Origin: Nymphaea colorata | Lineage: Eukaryota; Streptophyta; Magnoliopsida; Nymphaeales; Nymphaeaceae | Direction: 5' to 3' | DNA length: 64,000 bases | Assembly (NCBI RefSeq): GCF_008831285.2 | Contig: NC_045149.1 | Location: 22,884,535 to 22,948,534, forward strand | Translations under genes and position numbers: made by a program | The notes under the pieces: model-generated | Seen by the model: the letters and a program-made list of their open reading frames with translations, nothing else | What the model was told of the DNA's origin: nothing | Database searches by the model: none | In this document: positions 34,201 to 60,720 of the stretch, piece after piece | Layout: each line of letters opens with the position of its first letter | How positions within the stretch are numbered: the stretch's first letter is position 1

Positions 34201-37200
34201 CATTTCCTCTTGTTGTGCACTTTGGGTTCGTTAAGGCATAATATACACTTTTTAAGATGTGCTTTTGCAAGTCCTTTTTCCTTTCCCTGCTTGAGTTGAC
34301 AAAATATTAGGATAACTCTTCTTTCATTTGTTTGTGAGTCTTCTTACCTGATTGGTTGCGTCATTCTTTTATTTTCACAATTATCTTTGTATGTGGCTGC
34401 TTGCATGAGAACTGATTCATGTGGGAAATCTGTGTTTTTAATCCAGATCAGGAATCTCAAGGATTTGGCGATCTCCTTGCCTGTATAAGAGACAAGGGAA
34501 TTCATCTTCAGAATATTCATTTTGTAGTAAGTTGGTCACCTTTATCAAGTGCTTACCAATGTTATACGATACGTACGATACGGGGCCGATACGTACGATA
34601 CGATACGTATCTTTTACAAAATACGATATGATACACACCCCGTATCGTACGATACGGGCTGATTTCAAAAAATGGGGGCTGGAAACCCCCTTTTTGAGTT
34701 TTTTTTATAAAAACCCGGCCCTTCCTCATTTTTAACTTAGAGATTGTGCCACCGTGGAGGGAAATCATCGATTTTCAAAATGAAATCATCGATTAAACCA
34801 TGGATTTGTGCATGGGTGGTTGATTCTCGTTGGGAGGAAAGAAGTTTTTTTAAATCGTGAACATGAAAATGAAGAAGAAGATGGAGATGAGGATGAGAAT
34901 GAATATGATGAAGATTATGAATGAGAGTCGAGAGTGCTTTCATTTTATATGTATTGACATTGAACATTTTCACAATTTCATTATCATCTTCTGATGTAAT
35001 ACATAACATCTAAAACTTGTTTTTTGATGTGGTATCTCATAGACTTATGGACCTTATGACTTCTAAATCTATGTGTTTTTCATGAAGAACATATTATTCT
35101 TGTTTTTTACTGATTTTTTTGATTTTTTTTCCTATTTTTTCTGATTTATTAAAAAAAAAACGATACGGTTACGATACGTTACGATATTTTACGATACAGC
35201 GTATCTTAAAGCCAGACCGATACGGCTTACGATACGCTTTTTACAACATTGGTGCTTACCAAGAGATTTTGGACTTTGGAGCAGTTCAGAGCTCTTAGTG
35301 ACAGGGCTCCTTCTCAGCCTATTTTCACTTTTGTTTTTTTTTTGTTATTATATAAGCCATATGATAATATTGTGAAGTTATAGTGTCATACTTATTTAAG
35401 ATATTGGTACCTTTTTTTTCACATTCCAAGGCTGTTCTTTAATTCTGCATTCCTCTTTTTGTCACAGACTTTCAGAAATAACCTTAACAAGGTTAGTCTT
35501 CAGTTCATTCATGCTCTTCCTCAAACTTTGCAGTTTGTATTATCATTGCATTTTTCCCTATAATTATTCTATTTTTCTCTTCAAAAGAGCATTCTATGTT
35601 ACGTTTATCTTTCTTAGTTGGTCACACTCTCTGTTCACCTTTCTGTTCCATACTCATGATTTTCAGATACTAGGAACTATTTATAACAGATATGAGCCAT
35701 GGGAAATGGGAGTGCACAAGAGGAAAGGAGTTGTATACCTTGATGTTCATAAACTTCCTGAAAGGCCACAGAGTGAAATAGACCGACGAAGGTACTTATG
35801 AGTTTCACTTGTCTGTTCCTTCTAATTAGTTTTATGAAGTTACTATATTCTCTCTCTGAAGTACTGTCTTCCCTTTCTGATTTTTTGAAAGAGAACAAGT
35901 GAAACAATGGAAAGCATGTATTATCTTTTTCTAATATCAGATTTTGTCGTGGTACTTGCTCTAGCTTACATGTATTGTGGTAACTGGTAACTTCTGGTTT
36001 CTTTTGGGCTAAGAAGGGAAAAATCCTCTCCAGCAGAAACATATTAAATACAAAGGGCAATATTTAGCCGGGATATAACAGGATGTCCTGAACTATATTG
36101 GAATGGCATAACAGGATGTCCTGTGCTGCGAGTGATACTTCAGTGCACATCTTGCATGCAATTTGTGATCTGCAACTGCAATGCACAATACATAAATGCG
36201 GTAACTTTTTTTAACAGATCCAGTAGTTTAATGCTTTATGCAATTGATCGCACAGGAGACAATATAGTTTACCAGTAGCATTGACTAGTTATCTAAGTCA
36301 CATGGGTGCTTCAATAAGGTCCACGTATCTGTGTTGCCATGCCTGTACCTAAAGTAGGTACTTGGACACACTTGGGTACTTTTTAGCTTGAAGCTTACCC
36401 AACTACTTAATTTTGCCTGATTTAATTTTTTTCTACCTCAGTTTTCATTCTGTTTTTTAGAGTTATTATTCATTAACGTATAATTTATACCACTTGTTTA
36501 TTTAATGTTGCTTTCATTTTGATTTTTTGTAGTATTTTTCGTACATACATATACATATCTTTCCGTATCCCCCTCCCCGCTTTTTCTTAACTTATTGTGT
36601 CCATACCATATTTCCATACAGATACCCAAATCATACTCGTATCCCTGTGACTTAGCTAGTTATTATACAAAATTTCATGGTAATCACATGTGGTTAAAAA
36701 AATCCATTTTAGGAATATATTTGCTGCTTAAGTGGTCTGTGAATTTCTTTAGAAACATGAATATTCTGGTATGTATCAAAACATGTGTCGAGTTATGAAA
36801 ATGTATGCAATATATGTCTTAGTAATCAACCATACATAATTATATTTACTGGCTAAAATGCCTTTCCAACCTTTCTATTTGGTCTTTAAATATGAGTCAA
36901 ACTTAACCCAGTTTTCATTTTTTTGGGAAAGATTGTTTTGTCTGATAAAGTTAAAATATTGGAAATATCTCTTTCCTTTTGTTTTTCCCGAAAGTTAAAA
37001 TAGATAAGAGTTTGATGCTATCTCTCTGCCAATAAAAAAAAAAAACTACAGATTAGGATAAACAAGTAATTTCTCCTTGTCTGTGATTTGTACTACTACA
37101 TTTCCAAAGAAGCATTGATGCAGGTTATGTAAGAATATATTGAACATCACAATCGAAGATAGTTTTCATGATTCAAAAAGTTCTATAATAAAAGTGAAAT

Positions 37201-40200
37201 TTAGCGCCAAATTGTCAGTGATTTTAGTAGGCTCTGGTAATATAGTTTTAAAAGGGGCCAGGCTAAAAAGTTGGCCCAAGAATTTGGTGTCCAACAAGGA
37301 CTGTGTCACAAAGCCAAAATAGTGGGTTTTCTTCTCATGACCTGTATACAATTGGTTGTGTGCTTTTATACACATGCACAAACATGCATGTTTGCATCCA
37401 CATTGACATACATATAGGTATGTGTGCCTACACAGTGTACACACATACGGAATGTCATGTGTTTTCAATGTATTTCATCATTAAAATTCACTTTAAAATG
37501 CAAAATCTCTAAACCACAGGAGCTGAGACATGGATGGTTCTGGAAAGTGATATGGTGAATCATATAGGTGAACATTCAATTCTATATCTGCAACAAAAAA
37601 TAAGGTTTTGTTTTTAAAGTGGCTAACTTGTGTTGCATAAATGGAGTTGTCTGAATGCATAAGTTCTTGTTTTCTAGGTTTTGAAACTTCTACTGGATTA
37701 TTGACAGAGGTGAAGCTGCCTATTAGATATGTCCATGTGGCAAGGGTAGTGCCTGTGGACCGTTGCTGCTCACATATTTCATGATCCAAACGTTTTGCCT
37801 TTTATTGTATGTTGTGCACGAACAATCATCCTTGCTGAAAGCCTGAAAGTATGTTAGTTTCCAGGCAGGATGAGATTCTCTCTTTACTACTGTACACTTC
37901 TATTCTCATTTTGTTCCCATGCTTAGTTCCTATTTCTTAGTTTAAGAATGGTTGGCGGCATTAGCTTACAGGTGACTACAACTTGTGCAAATTATTAATG
38001 CTCTTTTCTTTCTTGTAGATGCTATTGGGGATATTCATTTGAAAGCATTGCCACGCAGGACCCTAAAGGGGCTGATTTTGATGAGCCCCAGCCAGTGGAC
38101 GCAAACGTTGAATTCTGTTCTATCATTAAAACCAAATTAGGTGCCCATCGCATTATTATGGGGGCTGAAATGGACTGCTGTGATGTCTCTGAAAGTGGAA
38201 AGAAGTATTATATAGAGCTGAAGACAAATCGGGAGGTTGGTTGAAAAGGCTAGTATTATCTTCATGTGATGCCTCAGCTAACAACTATTTATGTGGTTTT
38301 AGTTGGACTTCCATACTGAAGAGAGGTTCGAGAGGCAGAAACTGTTGAAATTCTGGGTATGCAACTCCTAAAGACATTATAGATATTTTTAAATGTTTTC
38401 CAACTTTTAGTATGAAAACTTTTGGTATTCATTCCTCTACACATGAAGAAATTTGCTTGTCTTAAGGGGTGGGGAGATGCGGTTATTTCTTAATTTCAGT
38501 CTTTCTCTTGCACTTGGAAAAGTTTTTCATTTTTTCCTGTATTTTTTTTGGCTTTTCCTTTTCTGAGAATACATAACGAGGTCGGCTCTTTTGTCTTGAG
38601 ATGTCTTTTTTATTTGGTTGAACTTTTTATTACAAACCCTTCACCATGTACAATCTTAAATCCCCTGAAAGACACCTTTACGTAGATCTGTGCTTATGCC
38701 ATCCTAACTCTTAGGTAGTCAAAATTGGAAGTGAACTGCAAGTTTGGTTTGTAAAAAAATATAATTAATAAATTATAAAAAAACAAAAGTAAGTTAGTCA
38801 ATGACTAAACCAACACGGTGAACTAGTCTATGAAATGGGCCCTACTGATTTTGTGCCCATGGATAGTTGACTGACTGCCGACTTGGTTGATTAGTTGAGT
38901 AGTTGATGGATTGACAACCAAGTTGTCACCTAGAGAGGAAATAGGGATCTCCTCTTATGCCTTTTATGTTCCTTATGGAAATTGCTAGCATTATTTCAGA
39001 TTTTTAGGACAACATTAAATGCATTTGTTGTGTACAGCCCTACGCTTGCCTTTAGCCAAATTGAGCTCAAGTTGGGCCAGCCCTGGCTACGCTTGACCCA
39101 TATGTTACTACTTACTTGGCTCGAGCATGAGTCAAGCTTTACAAGGTAACCTTGAGATCGACTGTGTTGGAGTTCGACCTTGACTTGTTTAAGCTTGTGT
39201 CACTATTCATACAGTGAATCTTAACCGAATAGAAACCCTCAGCTTCAACCTTAGGGAAAACAGCTAGGGAAGGCTATGGGGCGCAAAAGTCATTGGGCTT
39301 ACCAGCATCGTGCTGTCACAGCTGCGTACTGGTGGGTGGAGACATTAGTGGCCTCACTGGGCAGGACCACAGATAGTTTGTTTCTTTCACTATTCGCTGT
39401 ACCCATCAAAGGAGAAAATGAGAGAAGATAAAAAAAAATGTAAAATGTATAATGGGAATGAAGTAAAGTCACCAATGTTATCCGTATCGTACGATACCTA
39501 TCGTATAGGTCAAGAAAACCTATACGATATGTGTTTGAAACACGATACGCGTCCGTATCGTACGCGTATCGCCCGTATCGTGCGATACGGGGGCCGTATC
39601 GTACAATACGGGCGATACACCCCTGTATCGTACGATACGGGAGAAAACACATATTTCTTTATTTTTTAAAAGTTTAAACACTCCTCCCCCTCTCTCTTCT
39701 TGTATTTAAAGACTCCAATAGACGTAGGAGAGAGATTTTGCCCATTTTCATAAAAAATAACCAAGGATTCATCAATTTGGGAGATATTGTCGTTGAATCA
39801 GGAAAGATGATAACTATATGTTTTGAACTTATAAAATTATGATGTAATCTAAGTCCTAAAACTCCAAGTCCTAAGACTCTAAGTCCTAAGATTCTATAAA
39901 ATTTTCAAGTTTAAAATCGTGATGGATGCTTATATGTTATTCTTGAAGATTTGATTTCTTATTTTTGAATGTGTCATTGATACACATGAATGTTCCTTAT
40001 GTATGATGATCTTTTTTATATTTGAATACATTTTTCTTAATTTCTGATTTTTTGTTCGTTTTTTCAGATTTTTCTCTATTTTTTATGATTTTTAAATATT
40101 TTTTAAAATTAAAAAATTAATTTTACGATACGCTACGCTACGTTTGCGATACGTTACGATATGGCGTATAGGTCGGCCCGACCAATACGCGATACGCTAC

Positions 40201-43200
40201 GCCTTTTATAACATTGAAAGTCACTGTGAGTTGGCCATCTTCATACTATTGGGTGGCTCACCAGAGACAGGAGATTGGCTGGGAGGGGCCATGGAACCCA
40301 TGACCTAGGAGAGAAAGTTGAGTGAGGAGGGGGACATATAAGGAAAAAATAAGGGTCTTGGATAAAACTGGCGTTTTTGTAGAGACTATTTTGAAGTCTA
40401 ATCCGTATCTTTGCCTGACAATACATTGTACTGAAATTAATCCTGCTAATACCTGATGTGTAGCTTGGTCTGAATTCCTATCCTTTATATGTATATGTGT
40501 GTGTGTGTGTGTGTGAAACTGTGAGAGTGATTCTTGTAGTCATTTTCCTTGAGAGGAGCTTCCATCATGGTCCACCTAACCAGCTGATCTTTCTTAAGAG
40601 AAGAAGCAACCCAAAGAACTTGTGACATGCGCTCTTTGCTCAAATTATGATGTGAAAAGTGCTAGTACGAAATTAGGTTTATGTTTCGTTTTATGTTTCA
40701 AATGATATCTTATTTCATAGGAGAAAAATTCCTATCACCTAATTATCTTCAAAATCTGATGATGTTTTTCCGTTGTGGTGTATGATTATATCTGATGACA
40801 ATTTCGTATTAATTTTGGCAGATCCAATCATTCCTAGCTGGTGTACCTTTCATTGTCATTGGCTTCAGGTATATATGAGGAGTTATAAGCTGATTGATTC
40901 CAAATTGAGAGCACAGGATGTTCTGAAAACTGTTTGTAGTTTCTTGGTTTATCTAGTATGTATTACAGGTAACTACCCTACATGTGTCCTTAAGTGAGGT
41001 GTTGTGACTTGTCAATTCTGAGTTCTATAATATTGCTAACTCACCTCATGTTCAGAGCAGAAAATGATTAAAATAATACCGAGAATGTCTTTTGAAATGA
41101 AATATGGTTTAAAATGGGTATTGAATTGTTAATACAGCACAATGTTGAATTAAGGGCGTTAAGAAATGGTGCTGCATTGAAGTTGAAGGCATATAAAAAG
41201 TTTATATTGTGAGGTGATTTTTATGATTTTGTATTCTCCTTGGTGTAGCCACGGTTCTTGTATGAACAGTTGCATTTTGTTGGTTTGTTGACATATTGAA
41301 TACTTGGTAAGGGTGATCTTCAAAATTTAGTCATGTATTGGAAAATGCAGCTGCTTATGTTTGATAAGAAGGTTTGCATGAAGCAACAAGGTGAGCTTCT
41401 TCACAACCTTCCAAGAATTTGTGGTAAAAGCTTTTCAAAATGCTAGTGTTTTGCTGCTGTTCTATATATTTTTACATGTTAGTAACAGCAGGGAACTCCA
41501 TAAAATAGCATTATTCCCCTTCTACATCTGTGTCCATGTTATCCATCTTTGGGGCAAACTTCAAAAATTTGCTATTCATTTTTACGAGCTGTTTAAGGGA
41601 ACCTAGTAACATGTACATTGTCAAAGACATTGTGTATTGGCAATGAAAAGCACAAATCTGAAAATTGATACACAAATAAGTCTATCCAAGATTTATCAAA
41701 CTACTTCTATGACAATGACTTGTTGAAACTTTTGTTACTACTAGAGGATGGTAAGACATTTTTAGTGGGGAAAACTAAAAGTTGATGGATGAAATGCCAC
41801 CTTTCTTGAAATGTCAAGGGAAGTTCACACACTTGAAAGTAATGAAAGCTTTTCCGAGCATGACACCAGCTTAAGATGGTCAACAATTTATGTTAGAAAA
41901 CAACCTATATTCAAAAATTTGCTTTTCACTTTTATGAGCTGTTTAATGGGACCTAGTAACATGTACGTTGTCATAGACCTTGTGTATTGACAATGAAAAG
42001 CACAAAACTGAAAATTGATACACAAATAAGTCTAGCCAAGATTTGTCAAACTACTACTATGACAATGACTTGTTGAAACTTTTGTTACTACTAGAGGATG
42101 GTAAGACATTTTTAGTGGGGGAAACTAAAAGTATCTTTCTTGAAATATCAAGGGAAGTTCACACACTTGAAAGTAATCAAAGCTTTTCCGAACATGACCC
42201 CAGCTTAAGATAGTCAGCAATTTATGTTAGAAAACAACTTATCTTTAAGTTCAAAAGGATCTTTGTAGTTGTTGTTCTTTTGGCACATGGGTCAAAAACA
42301 GGCACCAGCTTGGCTTGGGGTGTGATGATTTGGTAGCGCTAGGACAGTATGTTTGTTAAATATGATTACTGCATAGGCTACAGCATGTGTAAAGCCTGAG
42401 GTTGGGGTGGTACAATTAGGGGGCTTTACCAAAGATGTTTCAGGTTTGAGTTTCCCTTTGAATTTGTAAAAAAAAAGGGTTTGAACCACAGTCAGTTATA
42501 AATTGGAAAGCACATGACCAAGGCTTGAAAATATAAGAAAATGTCAATAAAAAAATTTCTTGTACTGACACAACTCAGATGCTATCCATCCTGAAGTGGC
42601 CACAGTCCACACTACCATGTTCAAACGGATGTTGCCATACAAAGAGTGATCACTTTGAGATGGTTTCACTTTCTGCTTGAAACTAGTTCATGGATTAGGC
42701 ATTTGGGACTACTTTTTTCAAGTAATATGGACTCTGATTCGCTGTTTCTTGCAGGGATGATGCTGGACATCTTCTTCGTGTTGAGAGGCTTAGCACCAAG
42801 GATATCACTCAAAGGGTGAAGATGAAAAACTATTGGCAGGTAAAAATTCACTTGCTGGTAATGTGGGAATTGGAATCAGATATTGGGTGTCCTTAGTGTT
42901 CTGTTTCACTTTAATTCAAGTCTTCCCTCTCAACTTTGATGTCATCATAAATCCAAATTTAGGCAAAATAACCAGGTTAAGATTTATGTATTCTACACCT
43001 GTTTTCTTACCACTGAACAATGCTTTTATGAACATGTCAGGGAGGTGTCTGCTTGGCCTTTGCAGATGAGGTGTTGTGCTGGTTGTATGGAACCGTTAAA
43101 GAGAGTTGAGTATCATTTTGTTTTTGAGTAAGCGAACATCTGTATATGTTGGATTCAATCAATTATGCATGTAATTTGTCTTTGTTTTGTTTCAGATGAA

Positions 43201-43299
43201 GACTATATACTTCAGTTCTGCCATCCATTTACTCGGTTAGAGCTACTGCGAGCCCATTCATGCCCATCTGTAGTCACTAATCATGCGGAACAGCTTTAG
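31265..43299 (+). CDS. DXO1: DXO1: NAD-cap / decapping nuclease, plant type
   Basis: Thirteen coding exons: 31265-31640, 32504-32754, 32848-32913, 33165-33243, 34447-34526, 35468-35491, 35667-35791, 38019-38235, 38303-38356, 40822-40868, 42755-42839, 43041-43104 and 43196-43299. All are GT-AG and in phase, giving 523 aa. DXO/Rai1 enzymes remove non-canonical 5' caps, including NAD, and some degrade the RNA 5'-3'; the plant protein also supports cap methylation through its N-terminal extension. Catalytic residues are visible: E342 (GYSFE), E384 and D386 (GAEMD), E400 and K402 (ELKT) and Q426 (IQSFLAG). Residues 1-125 are low-complexity and acidic, with 11 Ser and 9 Glu in runs, typical of the plant-only extension. 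Residues around 135-150 are Gly/Arg-rich (GFGRGHRQ). One exon is only 24 bp. Introns hold three MITEs and a 350-bp duplication. Confidence 0.95.
34557..35251 (+). mobile_element. Palindrome-rich hAT-like element, copy A (DXO1 intron 5)
   Basis: Ends are CAATGTTATACG and, reversed, CAATGTTGTAAAA. The flanking direct repeats GTGCTTAC (34549-34556 and 35252-35259) are perfect 8-mers. The first 90 and last 90 bases are dense in CGATACG/CGTATCG words, including CGTATCGTACGATACG at the left end. The centre is AT-rich without a transposase frame. The same family is at 39473 and 59866. Confidence 0.85.
36293..36655. mobile_element. hAT-like MITE in DXO1 intron 7
   Basis: Left end CTAAGTCACATGGGTGC; right end, reversed, CTAAGTCACAGGGATAC. 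Flanked by perfect 8-bp direct repeats CTAGTTAT (36285-36292 and 36656-36663). The 363-bp body is AT-rich and non-coding. Confidence 0.85.
39473..40216 (+). mobile_element. Palindrome-rich hAT-like element, copy B (DXO1 intron 9)
   Basis: Ends are CAATGTTATCCG and, reversed, CAATGTTATAAAA. Perfect 8-bp direct repeats AAAGTCAC lie at 39465-39472 and 40217-40224. The left 170 bp contain at least five full or near-full copies of the palindrome CGTATCGTACGATACG. The right 90 bp carry half-sites (CGATACG, CGTTACG) and GTATAGGTCGGCC. The core is AT-rich. Same orientation as copies A and C. Confidence 0.9.
40494..40514 (+). repeat. (GT)n microsatellite in DXO1 intron 9
   Basis: About ten GT units shortly downstream of the copy B element. 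Confidence 0.85.
41561..42255 (+). repeat. Two-copy tandem duplication, period 350 bp (DXO1 intron 10)
   Basis: Copy 1 starts with TCAAAAATTTGC at 41561 and copy 2 at 41911. Shared words include GACCTAGTAACATGTAC/GAACCTAGTAACATGTAC, ACTACTAGAGGATGGTAAGA and AAGGGAAGTTCACACACTTG. Identity is over 90% by eye. Copy 2 lacks about 17 bases present in copy 1 (after ACTAAAAGT). Confidence 0.9.
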
Positions 43300-43780
43300 G
43301 TGTCTTGTGAAGCCATAGTTTTGAATGGATAGTTTCACAGTGGGATATTTATAACAAATGATTATAGGGTTCAAGTATTTGATCCGTATTTTGCAATCAA
43401 GATAGGTGTCATACTTTCTGAAAATACAAGTGAAATTACAGAATATGTGCAGAGAACGTACATGTGCTGTTGTATGATGAAAATTGTAATCTTCATATTT
43501 ATAGAATAATTGCTCTCCCAGGGATACAGTATCCTGGTTTTGCATGTTGATTTTTCTCATTTGTCAGGAATGACAACTTGTGATGTTCGTGCCGGACATG
43601 TCTTTCTTAGGGCTGTTCTGCTGCCATCAAGTGTAAATTCTCAAAGATGTCATGCAAATACAAACTGTTTATTGGTCTTTTTGTTCGGAATTATGATGTC
43701 TGCTCTCATCTTTGATCGGCTTCTGGATTGCAAGAACCTGACGTCCACCAGCTTCCGTTTTACTCTTTGATTCATCGGTC
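43300..43780 (+). other. Probable 3' UTR of DXO1 and the convergent gap
   Basis: Follows the TAG at 43297-43299. It is AT-rich and includes a small GATACAGTATC palindrome near 43522. The decayed coiled-coil gene begins on the opposite strand just beyond. Confidence 0.35.
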
Positions 43781-43802
43781 GTCTCCAATAATGGGTTCAT
43801 CT

Positions 43803-44260
43803 TTGCAACCTACAGCCGAAGTTGAGCATTTACTTCTGCTTTCTTTAATTTGCGTTTGAGGAGACGATATCCTTCCGGAGACCTGAGCAATTGTCCAGAG
43901 AGCTGTCTGTTCCGTTCTTGGAGGTCTTGTATTTTGATCGTTCCATTGCCGATCCCCTTGCGCTTGCTAACGCTCGCCCGGACCTTAGAAATAAGCGTCA
44001 TTCTGTACTTTCAAGTCGTGCAAATGCATCTCGATTTCAGATAGCTCATTCACAGCTCTGCTGCCATTATCTCTTTCTTCCCTTCCGAGGCTCTAACATC
44101 TCCATGTTCTTGCATGATGTGATACTTGCTGCAAGCTTTTTCCTCAGCCTCTGGTTATCTTCACACGTTGCCAAGTAATCGACTGTCGGAACAACTGATA
44201 CCATATAGTCTGCCTCCTGTTCGTCGTGGTTAATGGCCCTGTTTGCACCTTTCTGCATCA
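43803..44260 (-). pseudogene. Decayed coiled-coil gene related to the 54-kb gene
   Basis: On the minus strand, fragments in shifting frames match the intact protein at 54019-55354 in order. EDNQRLRKKLAAS matches DENQKARKELTAT, then EIMAAEL and NELSEIEMHLHDLKVQND match EIMAGEL and DEMEEIVADLKAQNE. Last, LQERNRQLSGQLLRSPEGY matches LQERNKVLSDQLLKSIESY. At least two frameshifts and one in-frame stop (TGA after the AAEL segment) separate these blocks, and no introns could explain them. The part covered corresponds to about residues 105-235 of the intact protein. Similarity is moderate (near half of residues), so this is an old paralogue or its remains rather than a fresh copy. There is no intron trace. 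Confidence 0.75.
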
Positions 44261-44570
44261 GACCTTTGCCAATTTAGCACTACCCTCCTGCTCAAGCCTG
44301 TACTCTTTCTCTCTCATCAACTTTACATGATCTGCCAGCCTCAAACCTGTTAGCAGCAATAGAATTTTGGATGCTAAGTTCCTTAATCAAGTTGATGATG
44401 CCAACAACTTTTCCGCATTTCTTAATGTCTTCCTGGTGTAAGCGCCCATACGTATCCATCCAATATCCATCTCAATGTCAGCTTTCCTTTCATATTCTCT
44501 GCTGTTGGGTATCAAAACGAAGTTGTGAGAAGGCGAGCTACTGTTGCTAATAATAATGCTGGAAATCGGA
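44261..44570 (-). pseudogene. Possible upstream continuation of the decayed gene
   Basis: On the minus strand, broken frames read like a charged helical protein (EYERKADIEMDIGW, INLIKELSIQNSIAANRFEAG, ADHVKLMREKEYRLEQEG), with frame changes between blocks. I do not see a match to the 54-kb protein in this part and cannot name a family. It may belong to the same dead gene or to a neighbour. Confidence 0.35.
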
Positions 44571-44876
44571 CCACGATAAGAGCTTTTTACCAGAGACTTA
44601 GCACCTCCCTAATTCCCTAATTTAAGTTGCTAAATATAAAACATTCAATTGCAAGTGTGCTGTTGTTATACTTAAAAGTTAAAGCGTGTTCTTGTCAAAA
44701 TGTTCACGACGTTTTTGGTTGTTTGGAGCAAGTGGGGAGTAGTCCATTTAGGACAAGTGCATGAAACTTGAGCTGTTGAAAGCAACGGAGTGGCGGAAAA
44801 GCTAGTCCATCTTGAGTGGCTGTTGGATTCCCGTTCTCTTTTGCCTCTCTGGACGCTCGTTGAGCATCCCTGTCAA

Positions 44877-45071: not shown

Positions 45072-45080
45072 CCTGTCAAC

Positions 45081-49400: not shown

Positions 49401-50137
49401 TATAATACTGTAAAATACATTCACCTAGACTGGTCACAGATATTCCTTTTTTTTTCCTTCTCTAAAATTGGAGTTCTGGAAACTTCTAAGATTTTAGATT
49501 TGCCATTTGCCGAGTCAAACCCAAAAAATTTGACACAGCTAACTGCCTGCTTTTGCGTGTTACTCAGACATAATTGGGATCGACACAGGATACAGAGTGC
49601 ATAATTAATGTATGGGACAAGGAGTAAAAGGAAGAGTAGCCACACAGTTGGCAGCCAAAGTGTCACTTTGCTGCCTCTACGAAAACGGGGAGTTTTAGGA
49701 TTGAACACAAACGGAGACATCTAGCCAAGTCTTTTGCCAGTTCACAAGAAATAGCCGTCAAATGTGAAGGTTGTCAGGTAAATCTTTTCCAGGAAATGAG
49801 CATTATTTGGGGAGTCGGAGATGCTAGGAAAATTATCATACACCATGAACAATCTTTTACCACAAATCTATGTCAAACATAGAATTAGCAGAAATCAATT
49901 TCAGCACAAATAAGTAGGGGAAAACTAAAATTAGGTTAAGCATGATTCACGAGACAACCCATGTAAAAGCTGAACGGATCGACCACCACCCATTGATAAT
50001 ATAGCCCGCATATGCTCATGGAACCTTCCAATTGTAAAGGCACCCACCAAAGGTCAGAATAACGTCAACAGAAGGCTATCAACTATGTTTTCTCCAAGCG
50101 AACAAAAAATTTCACCAAATTACGGTCAGCAAAAAGA

Positions 50138-50168
<31 letters not shown>

Positions 50169-50262
50169 TCATACATTTGAGAGAAGCAGAGTATTCCGCG
50201 TAACAGTCGGAGTCCGATACCCTGGCAAGGCCCGGGACGGAGCTTGTAGAATTGGCAGCCAT
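46450..50262 (-). CDS. COX23: COX23-like twin CX9C (CHCH) protein
   Basis: Exons (minus): 50175-50262, 47147-47223 and 46450-46497. Phases agree and introns are GT-AG, giving 70 aa. The family sits in the mitochondrial intermembrane space, is imported and oxidised by Mia40, and helps assemble cytochrome c oxidase (Cox17/19/23 group). Two CX9C motifs are visible: CYAEYSASLKC, whose last Cys is split across the exon 1/2 junction, and CQQQFDAYKEC. They are joined by LDDFNYDKSK and followed by a basic tail (RKKEREQRLERNRKR). The ATG at 50262 has a good context. An in-frame ATG at 50322 would add 20 residues translated largely from the (GA)n leader, so I prefer the shorter form. Intron 1 is about 2.95 kb. 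COX19-like naming is an alternative. Confidence 0.88.
47224..50174 (-). other. Large intron 1 of the COX23-like gene
   Basis: No nested gene is supportable. A 97-codon plus-strand frame at 48808-49101 has no recognisable domain. The donor end of the intron is a (GA)n/(CT)n repeat. Confidence 0.5.
50141..50167. repeat. (GA)n microsatellite at the COX23 intron 1 donor
   Basis: About 13 GA units on the plus strand, (CT)n in the gene sense, starting about 8 bp inside intron 1. A matching (CT)n tract at 50264-50284 lies just upstream of the ATG, so the first coding exon is bracketed by opposite-sense dinucleotide runs. Confidence 0.9.
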
Positions 50263-50399
50263 GCCTCTCTCTCTCTCTCTTTCTCTGTTATATATGCAGA
50301 GGAAAAAAGATCCACAGCCCATAATCCATACAATATAAACCGGCTACTGAAGTACCGTTTGAACTTTTGGGGTGGACAACTCTTCCGATAAAGGGCTGC

Positions 50400-52620
50400 A
50401 GAGCTCCTTTCTCCAGACGAACCTGAACGGAGTCAGATGCATCCGTTAACTACATTGTCTGTTGATTTTACTATTAATTATTAAGAAGTGTAGAATCAAA
50501 CAAACTACGCCTCTTTAAACTTTGAAGCAATAGAAAATTCTCCAGTAAGCAATAATTTTTTCTCTTCATGTCGCAAATGAATGTACAAAATTTAATAAAT
50601 GTTTGGCACATTTGATTTGTTTTGAAAATCTTTTTCTCAGGTAAACTTTATCATATGATAATTTTCAAATCAATTTTTAAAGCTTCATAGAACACCATGA
50701 AAGTGTTTCCTAATAACAGTGTTCTTAATCTTCTAAGTTCCAACTTCCATGTACTCCGCTCTTAGTAGTTCGCCTATATCTTTTAAATAGGCAAGTTGGC
50801 GTCAAATATAGTTTTATTAATCACCAGGTTATTAAAATAAGTCCTGTTTTCCATGGTTTTCCCACGAAGAGAGTAGTAAAGTTAATTAAGATCAAAATTC
50901 CTTTAAAAACACTTTTCTAAATGATGTGTTTAAGGAAATTAAATAAAACGTTGCAAAAATACTCAAAGTTAGGGTAAATAACCAACTTTTAAAAGTTAAC
51001 AAATAAGTGCTTAATTTCGTAGAGAAATTCCGAAAGAGCTGCCTATTAATAAATAACTACTAATTTTTATTATAAAAATAAGAAATTACACCCCCCCCCC
51101 CCTTTAAAGTTAAAAATGCTAACGGCCGAGTGGTTTTTATGAAATATACTTTACCATTTTATATTAAAAATAATAATTTTTGTTAGCAAGCAGTTACTTG
51201 AAAAATTGTCCCAAAGTTGAGTCCCTATTTGTTAATTTTAAAAAATAAATGATGATTTTGCTATCTACACAAAAGTTATGCTCCTTTCTAGATTTTTTCA
51301 TAATATTCGTAATCTCTTAATTAAGTTCTATCATAAAATAGTGTTTTCTCTAGTTACACCTTTCAAAAACTGAGTAAAGAAAAGTCAGCCTTCTTTTTCT
51401 TTATCATGTTCTTGGTCACTCAAATTAACCTTTGAACAACCACACATGCCTTTAGTGTAATTTTCTTTAACTTTTTTTTAAGATCTTTATTAATTTAAAT
51501 ACTTATAATTCACCGAAAAGATACTGGTAACTCTTAATAGATTATCTTTCCTAACCAAATACCTTTTTCTCCCTATTGTTGAGTCAAGATGAGGCCAACT
51601 TGTAATCAGTGAAGATATAAATAAGAATCTTGCACCAAAAAGTTTGATGTATCATTATTATATATATGCAATACACATGCAAGTCCAAAGTACGTGTCCT
51701 AAAGATGATGATGATGATGGCGTAACTCAGTTCAATTCTCATGAGCGCTATATTTTTATGCCGCAAATGAGGTCAGTTCAATTCTCATGAGCGCTATGTT
51801 TTTATGCCGCAAATGAGGTGAAAGTGTTGTGGTAAGTGGTAAGGCACACACATTGAGCTCATTTTTCAACACCAATGCAGTCATGGACCTTAAAGGCAAA
51901 AGAAAAAAAGGAAAGCAGCGGAGGCAGCCTTTAATTCTTGCTTTGTTCATCGAAGTACTTTTTTTTAGTTATTTTATTTGTGTAATATTGTACACATTCC
52001 TTTCAAAGTTTTACAAGTCTAACTTTTTTGGAAAATAAATATCAGTCACAAAGGTAGCGTCTCTCGAGAAAAAAGTTATTTAAGGGGACTCATGTAATTG
52101 AAAGTCTAACCAATATGTAGGGATGTAAAACATCTTATTTTTATGTTTACTTAGGAAAAACCACGTTCGGTGTAAAAGCCCCAAGGCTATATTGTTATAC
52201 CTCCAAGGTTTTGGTTTGCTTCGGGACTCGGGTGAACCTATAGTATATCTTTCAACTTAAGTGTCACTTTTACGACTGTTTACAGCTCAGAGAAGTAACA
52301 CACCAGAAATTGAACTTGACTACGAGATTCGACTATAACCCCATAAGGGACCGTTTGAGGGTTTGGAATTTTGTTTCAAAAATGAAAATTACAAGATCAT
52401 AATTCCTCACCAAACTGGAATGAAATCAAAATTCCATGTTGCAGTTTCCTAATTTGGAAACAAAAAGACCCTGTTCAATAATTTCAATTTCTTAAAAAAT
52501 GAGCATTTTAATTCTAAATTTTGATGATTCTCAGTATATCAAACGTAGAAAGAAAGGCAAAGCATGGAGCTGCAAAAGAGAAGTGCATATGAAATTTCTT
52601 AAAATTGCATTGGAGTAGGT
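50400..52620. other. AT-rich intergenic DNA
   Basis: No gene was seen. It contains a C-run (51090-51101) and a 46-bp tandem duplication (51728-51819). Near 52345-52550 an AATTTTG/AAAATTC-rich stretch begins GGGACCGTTTGAGGG, a style often seen at MITE ends, but I could not find paired termini. Confidence 0.4.
51728..51819 (+). repeat. 46-bp tandem duplication
   Basis: The block beginning CAGTTCAATTCTCATGAGCG and ending CGCAAATGAGGT occurs twice in a row (51728 and 51774) with one substitution (ATATTTTT against ATGTTTTT). Confidence 0.9.
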
Positions 52621-52630
52621 GGGAGAAGAG

Positions 52631-52843
52631 TAGGTCTGGACATCGGGCGGACCCGACATCTGAAAATCAAGTTTCGGCTTGGTTCGATACTCAACACGAC
52701 CTGACTAAAATATAAAAACAATATTTTTAATAATAAAATGTATACCATTATTAAATAAAAATAATATTAAAAAATAAATTCAGGCTGACCCGGGCCGGAC
52801 CAGGCCAATCTTTTTTTGCCCGAACCTAGGCCCGATGCTCAGG
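52631..52843. mobile_element. hAT-like MITE with GC-rich ends, copy 2
   Basis: Left end TAGGTCTGGACATCGGGC resembles copy 1 at 11984. GC-rich ends with GACCCGGGCCGGACC surround an AT-rich centre. The right end (CCCGATGCTCAGG) is decayed and the target duplication is not clear, although AGGTGGGAGA occurs on both sides. Confidence 0.55.
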
Positions 52844-52859
52844 TGGGAGACATGGTTGT

Positions 52860-53900
52860 GGTTTCTCCATTTCTAACGGGTCTAATATTTTTGCTTCAAC
52901 CTAATTCTTTACATCGTTTATATGATTAGCTAATCTAAGTACGACACCTTTGCACTTCTATTAATGGATCTTGTGTTCACTAAATTTAGAATTTTTTTTT
53001 TACCCTTTTTTTTTCCTTTTCTTTTCAAAGGTTTGGTGGTTGGTTGGTTAAAGGCAAACAGGTATTAAAGCCATAACTAACAAACCTCTTTTAGAAGGGC
53101 TCACGAAAATAAGAATGGTGTTAAATTTCCATAGTACCCTCAACTATCTTTCTTTCCAACAAAACTGTCCCTTTTTTTCAAATCCACCAATTTTATTTTA
53201 TTTATTTACTTTTTGAAGTGGATGTGACAAGAGGATAAAACGAGGGTGAGCTGGCTTTTTAATGTGTTGAGTAGATTGACGAAATAATAACAAATAGCCC
53301 TTAAAACAATAGGGACACAAATGATTGAAAGTTTAAAATTGTGAGCAATAGCAAATGAACCAACATTGATAAGTTTATTTCCTACCATGTTGGTTCATTT
53401 GCTACCGCTAGTAGTTCAAGAAATCGATAAGTTTGATGGCATCATTAAAGTAATTTGTAACAATTAAAGTTTCATTTAAGGATGACCCAACGCCTGAAGT
53501 GTTTCATTTGCGCATTTCCTAAAGTTTAGGATGGCTTTGATCCCATGATCCCATTTTTGTTGTCTTTATTTTTTGTTAATAAATTTCAGAGGCAAACCCC
53601 CAACATTTTTGTTCTAGAAAGTCAGTTGCTTTTTTTTTTTTTGTTTACCACCCTAATCAACCGCTATTGAAAGCAAATCCGGGGTTTTAGCAATTTTTGA
53701 GGCCTTCAGGCATATTTTTTGTTATGGCTAAACTTTGGATGTGATTTTGATAATTCCTACTTTCTTGAACGGAGGAATATAACGGCTAGCGTTGGTTTTT
53801 CAAAAGGTCGAGATTTTTATTGTCGTTAACTTAATGCGTGGTACTTTTGTAATATGTGTAATAAGGTGGACGTTTTCATATTCGAGGGGCAGGGAAACTG
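52860..53900. other. Intergenic DNA upstream of the coiled-coil gene
   Basis: T-rich runs and short frames only; no gene is supportable. Sequence becomes GC-rich after about 53930, the probable promoter and leader of the next gene. Confidence 0.4.
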
Positions 53901-54018
53901 AAAAACGAATCCGGTCCCTTGTCTTGTCCTTTTTTACTGCGCCTTTTCCGAAATCCTTCCTTTTTACCGGCCTCGTCGTCCCAACTCCCTACCCTGATCG
54001 TTCGGCCACCCTGTGCTC

Positions 54019-55354
54019 ATGGACGGAATGGCGCCGGAGAATCCCCCCATGCGCCGAAAACCAGAAGCTCTGGTGTTAAGGGGTCTCCGTGCGAATTCTT
54101 CTCCGGAGCTTCTTCCTGTCTCTCCTCGGTTCCAATCTCAAGAAGACGACGCCCTAGAAGGTAAAAACCAAACAAGGATTGATTTCTGAAGGGAAAGAGG
54201 GAAAATGGGGTCAGATCTTGTTTTTCTCTTCCTCTTTTCTTCGGACACAATTCTATGCTTGGTAGGAAATACATTTTCGAAGTAAAAATGATAAATCTTT
54301 TCTTTTTTTTGCACTGCTTATCTTGAGTTTCATCAATAAGATTCTGAGACAAAATTAACTAAATTGCATGGAAGTTGTTGTTTTCCGATTTGGAAGATGG
54401 AAAGTGTCTCCGTTTTTTTTTGTCCAAATTAAGCAAAAAGAGGAGAAGAGGAGAAGAAAATCAGTTAGTTTCTGTAATTTTTCCTGAAGACGTTGCAAGA
54501 TGATCTGAAAAACGAAAAATCAGCGATTTGATTCGCCTCACTAAATTTGAGCTCTCTGTTGTCCGTAATCTTCAGTTATAACGGCGAACGCCAAAGCATT
54601 GCTCCGGCTTGTGGACAAGTTCACGTTCTCCGGTGATCTGAACACGAATGATAAGCGGAGCTGCGGCCGAGTCGCCCCGGTCTTAGCGCTAATGGACGAG
54701 GTCAAAGCACGGCTCGAGGCCCGGACGGCGCCGTCGCCGAGGGGCGACGAGAACCAGAAAGCGCGGAAGGAGCTCACCGCAACCCCTGCGGCGAGGAAGA
54801 GCCTAGAGAGGATGTTCTCGAGCCTCGGCAAGGAGAAGGAGATCATGGCCGGGGAATTGGCGCGGAAGGCCCGGGAGCTCGACGAGATGGAGGAAATCGT
54901 CGCCGATCTAAAGGCCCAAAACGAGAAGCTCCTCGCCAGAGTTCAAGCCCTAACCTCATCCGACCGGACGACCTCTGCCTCACCGCCGCCCCCTGCAGAC
55001 GGCGGTGGTACCGTACGCACGGCTGCTCTCCAGGAGCGCAACAAGGTGCTCTCTGATCAGCTCCTGAAATCGATTGAGAGCTACCGGTCGATGAAGCGGA
55101 AGTACAAGGACGCGCAGGAGGCTAACGCGGCGCTTCACGCCAGCGTTGGGGGGTACGACGAGATCCGATCGTGTATCGCCCGGATCCGCGCATCGCGCTC
55201 GCGTGACGGATGGTCGGCCGACTCCGCGGACTTTGAGAACATACTGGAGGCGATCGAACGGATATGCCGAAGATCGAACAGTCGGCACGATCGCAAGGCG
55301 AAGGAGGAGGCGGAAGAGGATAAGATGAAGAAGGCGGCGGCGGTCGTGGGTTGA
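54019..55354 (+). CDS. Plant coiled-coil protein of unknown function
   Basis: Two exons, 54019-54160 and 54576-55354 (donor GTAAAA, acceptor CTTCAG, phase 1), give 306 aa. The large second exon is open without an ATG at its 5' end, which is why an upstream exon is needed; MDGMAPENPP at 54019 supplies it in phase. Visible parts are a basic, Pro-rich N terminus (1-47) and a conserved-looking block LLRLVDKFTFSGD (55-67) with RVAPVLALMDEVKARLEAR. Two charged coiled-coil stretches follow at about residues 130-173 and 198-235, then a basic-acidic tail (RKAKEEAEEDKMKK). I recognise the pattern from unnamed plant proteins but know no function, and do not propose one. Exon 2 is much more GC-rich than its neighbours. 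A dead relative lies at 43.8 kb. It ends 476 bp before the PPR gene, on the same strand. Confidence 0.8.
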
Positions 55355-55830
55355 GCACCGCACCGGTTGAGGAGATACCGGCGATGACGCGACGCCGGAG
55401 AAAAAAGGAAAAAGGGGAGCGAGGTTTCATGGGGAACCCGGGAAACTCGAGAGCAGTGCGGCTTTTTTAGCCCGTGACTTGGCGCCAATTGTTGGTAGAA
55501 ATTGTCTGAACTACCCACGATAATTTTCGAAAATGTCGCTTACAAATTTTAAGTTTTTTGGGAAGGCTTTTCATTGTATGTCCGCCAGCGTATTTGCGCA
55601 TCTTAAATCTTAATACATTAGTGATACCTTCCATTTTCTGGTCCTTTCTGAATTCTTGAGGGTGTCATTGTCATTTAGATCAAAAAACATCTGGCACCTG
55701 CTTAGTGACAGTTCTACCCCTTTCCTCAAGCTCGCACCTTCGAAGCTCTCGCGCAGCTGCGCTGGTGCTCACGAACTTTTCAAATTTACTGATCAGTGCA
55801 TCCATGTACTTTGTGTATGCTCGGCCATGA

Positions 55831-57654
55831 ATGTTACCGTCGGCGTTCATCACCTTCAACTCATGTATGCGATCTTCAGGCTTTGCTCATTCTTCTGTTC
55901 CCAGTTTCCTCCGTAAACTTCATATGACTTCGAATGTTTCTATGCTTGAGAAGGCGTCTACAATCAAGTGCTTGCGTGAAATCCATGCTAGGATGATCAG
56001 AAACTCTGAGGTTGAAGACATTCTAACAGTGAGCAGGCTTGTCGCCCAGTGTACTCTTTCAGAATTTGGAAACATGGGTTATGCTAGATTGGTGTTTGAC
56101 CAAATAAAAAGACCAAACATTTTCATCTGGAATACCATGATAAGAGGCTATGCACAGAGTGACTGCCCGCATGAGGGTCTTGCTCTGTATGATGAGTTGC
56201 TGCAGAGAGGTTATGTCCCCAATAACTACACTTTCCCTTTTGTGCTCAAGGCCTGTGCTATGACTATGGACTTCAGTTTTGGGTCAAAGATTCATGGGGT
56301 CGTGTTAAAATTGGGGCTGCATGGATCTGATGCTTTCGTCCAAACCTCCCTTCTTAGCTTCTATGCTGCTTGTGGTTGTGTTGAAGACGCAAGCCAAGTG
56401 TTCGATGAAAGTCTGGAAAGAGATGTTACTTGTTGGAACGCCATGATCAATGGGTATGTTAAGGCTGGCCAGTGTCGCGATGCGGTTCAGGTGTTCAGAA
56501 GAATGCAGCTTGCGGGTCAGGTGAGGCCTGACCAGATCACAATGCTTGGTGTTCTTGCAGCTTGTGCTCAGCTGGGTGCGCTGGATTTGGGTAGATGGTT
56601 GCATATGTACATAGACAAAAATCAAATTAGATGCAATGCTAGTCTTAGCACTGCTCTTGTGGATATGTATGCAAAATGTGGTAGAATAAATGTTGCACTC
56701 AGTATGTTTAATGAGATGCCTGTTAAGGACGTGTTCTCGTGGAGTGTGATCATTGGTGGGCTTGCCATGCATGGTCTAGCTAATAAGGCTCTTAATATGT
56801 TCTCCGAGATGCTAAGGACAGGGGTGAATCCAGACTCAGTAACATTTACTGGAGTCTTATGTGCTTGCAGCCATGGAGGACTAGTGGAAGAAGGTCTGAA
56901 ACATCTTAGTTCTATGAGTAGCATGTACAATATCACGCCTACAATTGAGCACTATGGTTGCGTGGTTGATCTTTACAGTCGGTCAGGGCGTCTGGAGGAG
57001 GCATTGCATTTCATTGAGACAATTACAATGAAGCCAGATGTGGTTCTTTGGGGTTCTCTTTTTGTTGCTTGCCAGGCTCGCGGAAACACAGAGATTGGCA
57101 AGTTGGTTGCCCAAAGGATCCTGGAGTTGGATCCCTGCCATGGTGGTGCCTATGTCTTCTTATCAAATATTTATGCCTCTTCCAGTGAATGGGATGGAGT
57201 TCAACAAGTGAGGACCTTGATGAAGGATCAAGGAATCAGGAAATTTCCAGGTTGTAGCTTCATAGAAGTGGATGGTGTGGTTCATGAGTTTATATCTGGA
57301 GACACATCTCATCCTCAGATGGAGAACATTAAGATGATGATGGATGAGATTGCTAGGCTTCTACGCCTTGAAGGTTACACGCAAACTACCAAAGGAGTGT
57401 TATTTGATATAGAGGAGGAAGAAAAGGAGAATGCTCTTGCACAACATAGTGAGAAACTGGCAATTGCATTTGGTTTGCTCAGCACTAAGCCAGGGAGTAC
57501 CCTTCTTATTGTGAAGAACATCAGAGTATGTCCAGATTGCCACTCTGCAATGCAGTTGATCTCAAAGATATTCCATCGACTTATAATTGTCAGGGATCGG
57601 AACAGGTTTCATCATTTTAAGGAGGGGTCTTGTTCCTGTGGGGGGTACTGGTAA
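55831..57654 (+). CDS. DYW-class pentatricopeptide repeat protein
   Basis: A single open frame of 607 aa without introns, as usual for this class. PLS-type PPR proteins bind organellar RNA; the DYW domain is the cytidine deaminase of C-to-U RNA editing. Tandem PPR motifs run from about residue 60 to 430 (for example FIWNTMIRGYAQ, DVTCWNAMINGYVKAGQ, STALVDMYAKCGR, DVFSWSVIIGGLAMHG). E/E+ motifs follow, with the PG-box stretch FPGCSFIEVDGVVHEF, then the DYW domain. Zinc and catalytic residues are present: H539 and E541 of HSE, C567 and C570 of CPDC, and the terminal CSC. The protein ends CGGYW where the family ends CGDYW, so the D is replaced by G. The N terminus (first about 35 residues) is Ser/Arg-containing and could be a mitochondrial or plastid transit peptide. 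The next ATG in frame, MTSNVS, is an alternative start. Confidence 0.95.
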   Translation: MLPSAFITFNSCMRSSGFAHSSVPSFLRKLHMTSNVSMLEKASTIKCLREIHARMIRNSEVEDILTVSRLVAQCTLSEFGNMGYARLVFDQIKRPNIFIWNTMIRGYAQSDCPHEGLALYDELLQRGYVPNNYTFPFVLKACAMTMDFSFGSKIHGVVLKLGLHGSDAFVQTSLLSFYAACGCVEDASQVFDESLERDVTCWNAMINGYVKAGQCRDAVQVFRRMQLAGQVRPDQITMLGVLAACAQLGALDLGRWLHMYIDKNQIRCNASLSTALVDMYAKCGRINVALSMFNEMPVKDVFSWSVIIGGLAMHGLANKALNMFSEMLRTGVNPDSVTFTGVLCACSHGGLVEEGLKHLSSMSSMYNITPTIEHYGCVVDLYSRSGRLEEALHFIETITMKPDVVLWGSLFVACQARGNTEIGKLVAQRILELDPCHGGAYVFLSNIYASSSEWDGVQQVRTLMKDQGIRKFPGCSFIEVDGVVHEFISGDTSHPQMENIKMMMDEIARLLRLEGYTQTTKGVLFDIEEEEKENALAQHSEKLAIAFGLLSTKPGSTLLIVKNIRVCPDCHSAMQLISKIFHRLIIVRDRNRFHHFKEGSCSCGGYW

Positions 57655-59865
57655 AGTTCTTCACAACAAGATTCGCAACTAATTCAAGCAACTAAGAATC
57701 ATCTGTTCACTTCATCATTGCCAATTTACCACGTAACTAAAACTGTGCATGCATATGTCCGTGGGTGTGCATTAACAAGCCTTCTTAATGCGGAGCTAAA
57801 TTGCATTTTCAGTTGCCTGGACTGTTGAAAACATATGAGTTCAGAATCAGGTGAGGCCATCTTTCCATCAAACAGGCCTAAAACCTTAGCTCAAGGTCGC
57901 TCTGTCCAGTGTGACAGAACCCAGATTATCATTTTCTACAGGCACTCTGAAAAAAAAGAGGGTTGAGAAGATGGTTTTACTTTTACATGCAAAAGGCTAT
58001 AAGGTTTCTAGATTCAATTCAGACCCAAACACAACTCTGGCAGAAAACACTGACTTTCTGGCAGAAAATGTTGATCTACTGTGAGTGAACTTTGTCAAAT
58101 CCCTGGACATTCGATTCTGAGACGGTTGTGGTGCTTATGTAAATCTTATTTCATGGTCCATGAATGAGAAACGTGATCTGATTTCAGTTGGAAAGTCTGA
58201 GTGAATTATGTTCATTTGTGTCCTTGCGAACAAGCACCATTACCAGGCATGGTTTCTTTAAAACTTTAAACACAAGGGCGCGTACTTACTCGTGGAACGC
58301 TATGATTAACTAAATGGCTGTCACTGATTGGTATGCTAGTCAAACTACGAAGAATATCGAGAGACCAGTTCTGTCGCCAGCAAAAGCTCCGGTTAAGACC
58401 TTCAAGTTGAAGGAGGACAGGGTATCATGTATGGCACCTAAGAGAGAGAGAGAGAAGAAACAGTAAACAACTGTTCTTTAGTTCCTACCCTGTGGGAATA
58501 GTCACTACATGCTTAGGCGTCTCTTAGAGGACGGGGAACTTGGCAATAACAGATCATAACAATTAAAAGTGGGAACAGTAAACCAGAGGTTGAGTTTTCA
58601 GATACACATATTTCATTACAGTATCTTAAAGAACAAGACAAATATGAACTCACTTGATTTTCTTTTTCTGAATGTATTTATAGATGGTAGGAGAATTTCG
58701 TTGAAAGAGCAGTTCACAATCGTCTGGTTTTTGAGACCTTCCTCAGGTGATAAGGGATCTTACATATTAGATTATTCCATTTCCCCCCCTATTGCATAGC
58801 ACACCCTACTTGAAATTTAAACTCCCCAGCATTCAACTAGCTGCCCTTGGGATCTCAAAATTTGGATTGTTTAATAAAATTTGTTCATCCACACGTGGTC
58901 TACATGATTTACCAGAAAATAAGAAACCTGGTATTTTTATTCTTTGTGTAAATAATCTGTTATTAATCTTCAAGTTTTAGCATTTTGTGACCATAAAATC
59001 TGACATTCGAAAACATTGAACTTTGGGCATTTGACGATTGATTCATATTAATCATATACCACATCTACTTAGTCAAAAATTGGCAAAACCTACCTACAAA
59101 TACTTGTACCTTAGCTTGCAGACAACGCCTAGAAGAAGATTAGCACCAGCACATGAGAAAGAAGGTGATACACCAACCAACTGATGAAACAGGATTCGAT
59201 TTTACCAGAGCTTGAATTCTTCCTCTCTTTTGCAGAAAACATTTTATGTGATTATTTGATGAAGACTTGCACATTCTTTTGGTAGGTCCTGAATAAGCCC
59301 TTGATGGAGACACCTGCAACCCAATTGCAGAATTCTATGTATGACAACTGTGAATGCTTATTATTCATGACAGCTAGTTAGAGATGATGAATTTTTTTAT
59401 GCTAAGTTACAGTTAACAACAGTTGAACATCATCAAACTCTGCTTCAATTATAACCCAACTCACATGCGTACAGGTACTAGTTTAGGTACAGGTCGGGGG
59501 ACAGGTGCAGGTATGACAATTTTGCAAAATCAGATTACTAGGCATGGTAGAGTGTATTTGTAAACATAATATATATATATATAATCTACAAAAAAATCAA
59601 AATTAAAGAAAAATGAGCAGAAAATGTAGAAAGTGGGTGGAAGGAAAATAAAAAAAAAGAACTCAAATTAAAAAAAAAACAGCTTTTATATAGCCATAAC
59701 AAGCTGTACCCACATACCTATGTCATTGTACCTACATACCGATATGGGCATAGTTGGTAAACTTGAGAATCAGACTTGGATTGATAGATGTTGGTTGATG
59801 GGTTATTGAGTCGACTAGTCGTAAACCATTATAGTATTTTTTTATTGTAATCTTGTAGTGTAACC
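57655..59865. other. Gene-free stretch downstream of the PPR gene
   Basis: The first few hundred bases are probably PPR 3' UTR. Near 59455-59755 GTACAGGTAC-type words at the left and ATACCTATGTCATTGTACC at the right hint at a further inverted-repeat element, but no target duplication was found. No gene was seen. Confidence 0.4.
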
Positions 59866-60533
59866 TAGTGTTATCCGTATCACCGATGCACTTGTCTATC
59901 GTAGGTATATCTCCTGTATCATGCGACACAGAGCCTGTATTGTGTGATACAATCGATACATTCTTGTATCATACGATACAAGAATAAAATGAATTTCTTC
60001 TTATTCTTTTTACAAAAAAACTTCTCGCTTCATCTTTCTAAATATATCTACAAGTTGTGAGAGGAGGAAGTTTTATTAGTTTTTCTACAAAAAAAATGCC
60101 CATTTATGTGATAAATCATTAAGAAGGTTTACTCATAGCCCCATGGGGATGATGAAACCTGAGTGATAATAATCATGATATATTATATGTTGTGAACTTG
60201 TAATGTAATTTAAAACACTTAAAATCGTCATCGATGCTTATTATGTTATCATGAATTTCTTATTTTTAATTTCTAAATATGTTGTTCATATAATATGACT
60301 TATGAATGATGTCATGAGTTTTTTTATATAGAACACATTTTTTTCGAAACTTTTTTTGCTTTTCTTGATTTTACCTATTTTTTAGAATTTGTTCTTTATT
60401 TTTTATATTTTTTTTAAAAATTATGAATTAAAAATTAATTTATGATATGTTACACTACATTTATGATACGTTACCATACACTGTATAGGTCGGCCTAACC
60501 GATTAACGTTATGATATGCCTTTTACAACATTA
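59866..60533 (+). mobile_element. Palindrome-rich hAT-like element, copy C
   Basis: Ends are TAGTGTTATCCG and, reversed, TAATGTTGTAAAA. Flanking 8-mers GTGTAACC (59858-59865) and ATGTAACC (60534-60541) match at 7 of 8. The GTATCRTRCGATACA words have lost many CpGs to TpG/CpA compared with copy B. The AT-rich core shares AAAATCGTCATCGATGCTTA-type sequence with copy B. This is the most decayed of the three copies. Confidence 0.85.
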
Positions 60534-60642
60534 ATGTAACCTGTTGTCTCCTACCAAGTAAAAATAAAGAGGAACATGATCTTTGTTATGATTTGTCAAC
60601 AACTCTAACAATGTCGGAGGTCATAAATTTGAAAACACATGT

Positions 60643-60645: not shown

Positions 60646-60720
<75 letters not shown>
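60646..60720. repeat. (TA)n microsatellite
   Basis: An uninterrupted run of about 37 TA units. Confidence 0.95.

Follow-up and report, generated by a model that had tools for sequence, protein, structure and literature searches.

Elements in the window

The window, a 64,000-bp stretch of Nymphaea colorata contig NC_045149.1, carries three short elements of hAT type, A, B and C, whose coordinates, terminal inverted repeats (TIRs), target site duplications (TSDs) and end arrays are collected in Table 1. Besides, it contains Ty1/copia-like retrotransposon pieces (RVT_2, Pol_BBD) on the minus strand at 14699-18677, a 607-aa open frame for a DYW-class PPR protein at 55831-57654, in keeping with a plant genome, a 46-bp tandem duplication (97% alike) at 51727-51819 and a perfect (TA)37 microsatellite at 60647-60720, which lies 114 bp past element C.

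TIRs of the hAT superfamily start with YA(A/G)NG, and the window elements, their copies and the long elements described below have the ends CAATGTT, CAGTGTT, TAGTGTT and TAATGTT. In A, B and C the ends follow YARTGTTRT and the target duplications agree at 8/8, 8/8 and 7/8 positions, respectively. When the whole window was scanned for TIRs whose flanking 8-mers agree at 7 positions at least, exactly A, B and C were recovered, and 20 block-wise mononucleotide shuffles of the window gave zero TIR and TSD pairs; looser scans gave 3 additional pairs versus 1.65 per shuffle. The coordinates, ends and 8-bp duplications put forward in the first-pass annotation are thus confirmed, but its description of a three-copy family has to be given up. 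Pairwise identity among A, B and C is only 51-62%, so they represent separate subfamilies rather than copies of a single element, and the first look at the host genome gave 1273 candidates for B, 1073 for A and 800 for C (40 scored for each). The size in the window (668-744 bp), the high copy number and the ends common to the coding elements L108-L111 are features of MITE type. In a Pfam scan, the three reading frames submitted from A had no match. The segment 41444-47569 was considered as a further hAT member and rejected, as no hAT coding was seen by eye in its ORFs of at least 60 aa.

Table 1. Positions of the three elements, their target duplications and their end arrays in the window
Feature	Position	Strand	Description
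Element A	34557..35251	+	695 bp, non-autonomous hAT; TIR CAATGTTAT / CAATGTTGT
A left target duplication	34549..34556	.	GTGCTTAC; flank comparison
A right target duplication	35252..35259	.	GTGCTTAC; flank comparison
A left array	34566..34656	.	Mostly direct ACGATACG half-sites and the sole perfect palindrome of the window (34641-34656)
Remnant of transposase C-terminal acidic tail with stop codon	34859..34924	+	ORF resembles the C-terminal ORF of L108
A right array	35160..35236	+	Mostly direct half-sites
Element B	39473..40216	+	744 bp; TIR CAATGTTAT / CAATGTTAT
B left target duplication	39465..39472	.	AAAGTCAC; flank comparison
B right target duplication	40217..40224	.	AAAGTCAC; flank comparison
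B left array	39483..39639	.	One-mismatch palindromes at 39483, 39574, 39595 and 39624; strongly self-complementary
B right array	40125..40201	+	Direct half-sites
Element C	59866..60533	+	668 bp, most diverged of the three; TIR TAGTGTTAT / TAATGTTGT
C left target duplication	59858..59865	.	GTGTAACC; flank comparison
C right target duplication	60534..60541	.	ATGTAACC; 7/8 versus left GTGTAACC
C left array	59876..59980	.	CpG-decayed; the palindrome at 59965 reads TGTATCATACGATACA after three CpG-type transitions
C right array	60442..60518	+	CpG-decayed; several sites in the A/B register

Half-sites and palindromes in the window

The element ends had been described as packed with a 16-bp palindrome and its half-sites. 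For the half-sites this is true: the exact half-site (ACGATACG/CGTATCGT) occurs 16 times in the 2107 bp of the elements and 0 times in the remaining 61893 bp of the window, while there are 39 sites within the elements and 7 elsewhere at up to one mismatch, and 60 and 219 at up to two. For the palindrome, every one of the 9 matches at up to three mismatches falls within the elements (0.01 expected in the window), but the dense perfect palindrome is not borne out, since a single perfect instance exists in the window (in A), four matches with one mismatch lie in B, and the remaining four, the others of A and the best of C, have three mismatches. Nor are palindromes found at both ends; they are restricted to the left end, and the right ends consist mostly of one-way half-sites. 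Inside B, a 15-bp tandem repeat (TCTAAGTCCTAAGAC) lies at 39848-39896, which is present in the B consensus too.

Copies across the host genome

In the 408-Mb host genome there are 1198 exact 16-bp palindromes and 481 matches of the right-end pattern (260 forward, 221 reverse), and the reversed controls gave 0 for both. With right ends in both directions, the common orientation of A, B and C, which had been pointed out before, is a matter of chance. For B, 39 of the 40 scored places were given ends (all except L016) and in 34 of these 39 the two TSD copies agree at no fewer than 7 of the 8 positions (perfect in 28), while for A this is the case in 24 of 30 copies examined (perfect in 21), counts which take in the window copies and in which the ends are the best TIR/TSD combination within 40 bp of the predicted place, a choice favouring TSD discovery. 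In the first-pass annotation the family stood or fell with further copies that have matching ends and 8-bp duplications, and such copies are present. The target preference described for hAT elements is nTnnnnAn. Among the duplications, position 2 is T in 20 of 34 for B and 13 of 24 for A, and position 7 is A in 20 of 34 and 18 of 24, so the pattern appears as a preference only, and window B and C each match one of the two positions.

In other collections, the palindrome extended to an 18-mer was seen at 4 places in genome contigs, while viral contigs gave 0 matches for the 18-mer and 3 for the 16-mer; none of them is an array, and they were judged to be chance. At one of these loci (L004), two more half-sites lie kilobases away.

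Organisation of the left and right ends

For the consensus sequences we aligned the copies with a TSD score of at least 6 (B n=34, A n=27), and copy-to-consensus identity is 90-99% for B and 95-98% for A. At up to one mismatch, the left end of the B consensus contains 7 plus and 8 minus half-sites, which form four exact palindromes and a fifth with one mismatch, while its right end contains 9 plus and 0 minus half-sites (left-right orientation asymmetry p=0.009). The A consensus has 8 plus and 2 minus half-sites with one palindrome on the left, and its right end contains 6 plus and 1 minus half-sites (p=1). Counted in single aligned copies, exact palindromes number 0-5 in B (mean 2.3) and 0-1 in A.

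One may ask whether the palindromes act as a foldback, in which a left-end DNA or RNA hairpin feeds siRNA silencing or aids excision, with protein binding being secondary. The left 178 bp of B fold at -57.8 kcal/mol, compared with an average of -27.2 for 200 shuffles (z -9.1), and in 34 B copies with 1181 ungapped palindrome pairs, 6 double changes are still paired and 0 are unpaired, where 2.2 are expected under independence. However, we regard this role as unlikely, because folding is weaker at the right end (z -2.8), which nevertheless has the same half-sites in direct orientation, and because the left array of A, which has been recently mobile, is mostly direct repeats. Moreover, one-sided changes occur in 89 palindrome pairs, and the kinship of the copies can account for the six paired doubles.

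The reading we prefer is that a transposase docks on the half-sites. On the right, the A and B consensus sequences have sites in common at -92, -81/-82, -61, -35 and -23 from the tip, and window C at two mismatches retains those at -92, -61 and -23. Several steps between right-end sites are 10-11 bp, about one helical turn, to which the 5-bp period of the motif contributes. For ungapped right ends, the site columns are more alike than the rest in 9 of 9 A-like versus B-like pairs (p<0.05 in 5), although these pairs are not independent. The shared-versus-singleton constraint test gave mixed results, with p=0.018 in A and 0.83 in B for non-CpG columns, and p=0.49 in A and 0.043 in B for CpG columns.

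The 5-bp period, the deletions of at least 8 nt that recur within the arrays among copies and the mixed constraint test within subfamilies would also suit a (CGATA)n expansion of pentanucleotide type close to the tips, neutral and without function. Such an origin is highly improbable in our judgement, as the site positions are common to diverged elements at both ends and the right-end site columns are more conserved than adjacent ones despite their CpG richness.

Long coding relatives and their transposase

A profile search with DUF659 (PF04937) gave 150 scored hits, of which 27 fall within the region spanned by the 100 right ends listed. Within 3.5 kb, 7 of these 27 hits are followed by a right end on the same strand, at a distance of 1.7-2.2 kb (random counts average 0.05 and reach 2 at most), and the other 20 are without a right end among the matches listed for the exact pattern. 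In addition, of the 6 DUF659 hits in the part of C1 before 10.03 Mb, 4 are flanked on their N-terminal side by an exact palindrome no more than 2.5 kb away (random mean 0.04). Four of the seven hits with a nearby right end, chosen on that basis, gave the long elements L108-L111, which are 3369-3527 bp long, have the family ends and perfect 8-bp TSDs (4/4), and contain 2-5 left palindromes each at one mismatch.

L108 matches DUF659 with 201.3 bits, hATC with 52.7 bits and zf-BED with 18.7 bits, below the cut-off of 20.6, while L109 matches DUF659 with 182.3 bits, hATC with 48.8 bits and zf-BED with 28.3 bits, above the cut-off. In both elements the hATC match spans positions 23-84 of the 84 in the profile. 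The BED and hATC profiles were run on these two elements, through which both domains of a partner transposase are found, and L110 and L111 are assigned by their DUF659 match alone. A comparison of the 631-aa L108 frame with solved structures gave no match at E up to 1. The longer relative with the same ends and a hAT transposase, as the first-pass annotation had envisaged, thus exists in L108-L111, with DUF659 and hATC in L108 and L109.

Aligned to L108, the A consensus covers 1-93, 155-403, 3022-3131 and 3327-3527, the third piece being the acidic C-terminal tail. A is thus without about 2.6 kb of the gene and about 90 bp of the left array; positions 285-398 of window A align with L108 3011-3131, which contains the end of the L108 C-terminal ORF. 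B aligns to L111 1-293, 3042-3096 and 3105-3369. From these alignments, A and B are internal-deletion derivatives of elements of the L108-L111 type, and since the matched pieces are only about 69-86% identical, L108-L111 are relatives and not direct parents. The left palindromes start at 11, 31, 123, 144 and 173 in L108 and at 11, 31, 122, 143 and 172 in the B consensus, and agreement is partial for L110 (11, 31, 123, 152), L109 (11, 46, 137) and L111 (31, 142).

In L108 and L109 the left array is upstream of the transposase reading frame, which makes a promoter role possible beside binding. The half-sites might then be sites for transcription factors of the host, or stem from a satellite that was captured, and serve gene expression rather than transposition. 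We hold this to be quite unlikely, because half-sites are present at the right end as well, where their register is in part common to the subfamilies, and because exact half-sites are absent from the middle of the long elements (0 in 4/4) and confined to A, B and C in the window, while a satellite captured once leaves the matching arrays at both ends of diverged subfamilies unexplained.

Returning to half-sites as transposase docking sites, we found no exact half-site within 1.5 kb of the best 30 of 150 scored hATC loci; these loci are therefore not the partners, and other hATs in the genome do without the half-site. Eleven DUF659 (PF04937) hits have an identical score of 197.4 bits, and eight of these lie in open frames of 650 aa (C1:7701883 and C2:34093337 are examples), which suggests a recently amplified coding hAT. 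The hit at C1:7701883 has exact palindromes 1.2 kb upstream.

Recent jump of A and CpG decay

Element A has a twin at C12:22956032-22956726 (L048), 36 kb distant on the opposite strand, which is identical over 695 bp. The twin has its own 8-bp duplication (CATAATTA), and the 200-bp flanks of the two gave no BLAST match to each other, so A jumped recently and locally. Among the 40 scored for each, the nearest other copy is 97% identical for B and 78% for C.

CpG observed/expected is 1.6 in A, 2.0 in B and 1.13 in C. It had been claimed that CpG is lost from B to C, and this is indeed seen: of the 39 CpGs of B in the alignment, C has TG or CA at 21, versus 1 of 14 in the reverse direction. Averaged over copies, CpG columns are changed in 8-11% of cells versus 2.5-3.6% elsewhere, mostly by C>T or G>A. 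The decay appears to be of methylation type, which is well supported in kind, and methylation would be its cause. As for the age series that had been connected with it, the order A, B, C comes from nearest-copy identity alone, and CpG decay goes poorly with other divergence among copies, which speaks against a simple age series. The correlation between CpG change and other change among copies is r -0.10 in A and 0.32 in B; window B has a CpG change of 9.2% (above the mean of 7.9%) at a low other change of 0.6%; and A, despite its closest twin, has a lower CpG observed/expected than B.

A model for end recognition

With the copies, ends, duplications, long relatives with transposase domains, common site positions, CpG decay and the jump of A established, A, B and C are very probably non-autonomous hATs of three subfamilies, which a BED-DUF659-hATC transposase mobilises in trans by docking on half-sites that are paired at the left end. 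BED binding, the pairing in palindromes and the action in trans are what we infer from these data. In the proposed mechanism, the 3.4-3.5 kb hAT elements would encode the transposase acting in trans on A, B and C, and its BED zinc fingers would most likely bind the half-site ACGATACG. At the left end, where half-sites stand head to head as CGTATCGTACGATACG, two BED domains would dock per palindrome, while the right end would offer direct repeats, many at 10-11 bp spacing. Docking would carry the YARTGTT tips to the catalytic core, and cut-and-paste would yield the 8-bp duplications. Since A jumped recently with mostly direct left half-sites and one palindrome, the palindrome array is not required.

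More tentatively, and with clear doubt on our side, the ends could form an asymmetric code, in which a left ladder of 16-bp palindromes docks BED pairs and the right end presents single sites in approximately helical phase. As there are two CpGs per half-site, host CpG methylation could gate docking.

Comparison with known hAT elements

Tam3 of snapdragon is a hAT with many small end repeats, and methylation of these repeats affects transposase binding; its motif differs from the half-site here.

The model for the proposed mechanism is Hermes, the house fly hAT. There, BED domains bind a left-end quasi-palindrome cooperatively, the two ends differ in the placement of their sites, RE-STR1 to STR5 all point in one direction, and right-end sites were not BED-bound in the structure (PMC10368747). 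Hermes thus has paired BED sites on the left and one-direction sites on the right, as proposed here, but its pairs are a single one close to the tip and another deep in the element, whereas here there are up to 5 palindromes with about 15 left half-sites, and the transposase is of DUF659 type, unlike that of Hermes.

Maize Ac/Ds has an 8-bp TSD, a short TIR, internally deleted non-autonomous copies and, within 200 bp of the tips, several short subterminal repeats (AAACGG) to which the transposase binds; for wild-type transposition, Ac requires 200 bp at each of its ends (PMC3260210). The TSD, the short TIR, the subterminal repeats and the deleted copies are alike here, while the half-site ACGATACG differs from AAACGG in being CpG-rich and palindrome-paired at the left end. 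Herves and Tag1 also have short subterminal motifs bound by transposase unequally between the ends, but the motifs are CG/AATTCAT in Herves and AAACCC/TGACCC in Tag1, and the word "palindrome" is absent from that text (PMC3143072). Short hATs are also among the actively transposing plant MITEs, such as rice nDart1, dTok and nDaiZ, listed in a review with 0 occurrences of "subterminal" or "palindrom-" (PMC12595863).

Literature searches with the 16-mer gave nothing, shorter motif strings matched unrelated papers only, and the TIR letters retrieved nothing on hAT. Titles and abstract openings on DUF659 hATs and on water-lily genomes mention no such family, which may already be catalogued in repeat libraries such as Repbase.

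To our knowledge, the discrimination between ends by hAT transposases and the need for 100-200 bp per end are known in detail for few elements, Hermes included. This family supplies hundreds of natural copies with varied arrays in one genome, including the mobile A with one palindrome, and it also has relatives whose transposase frames are long and open, and an element that jumped recently, so that the effects of site number, pairing, spacing and CpG methylation become directly testable. If the asymmetric code were true, CpG decay would permanently switch off old copies.
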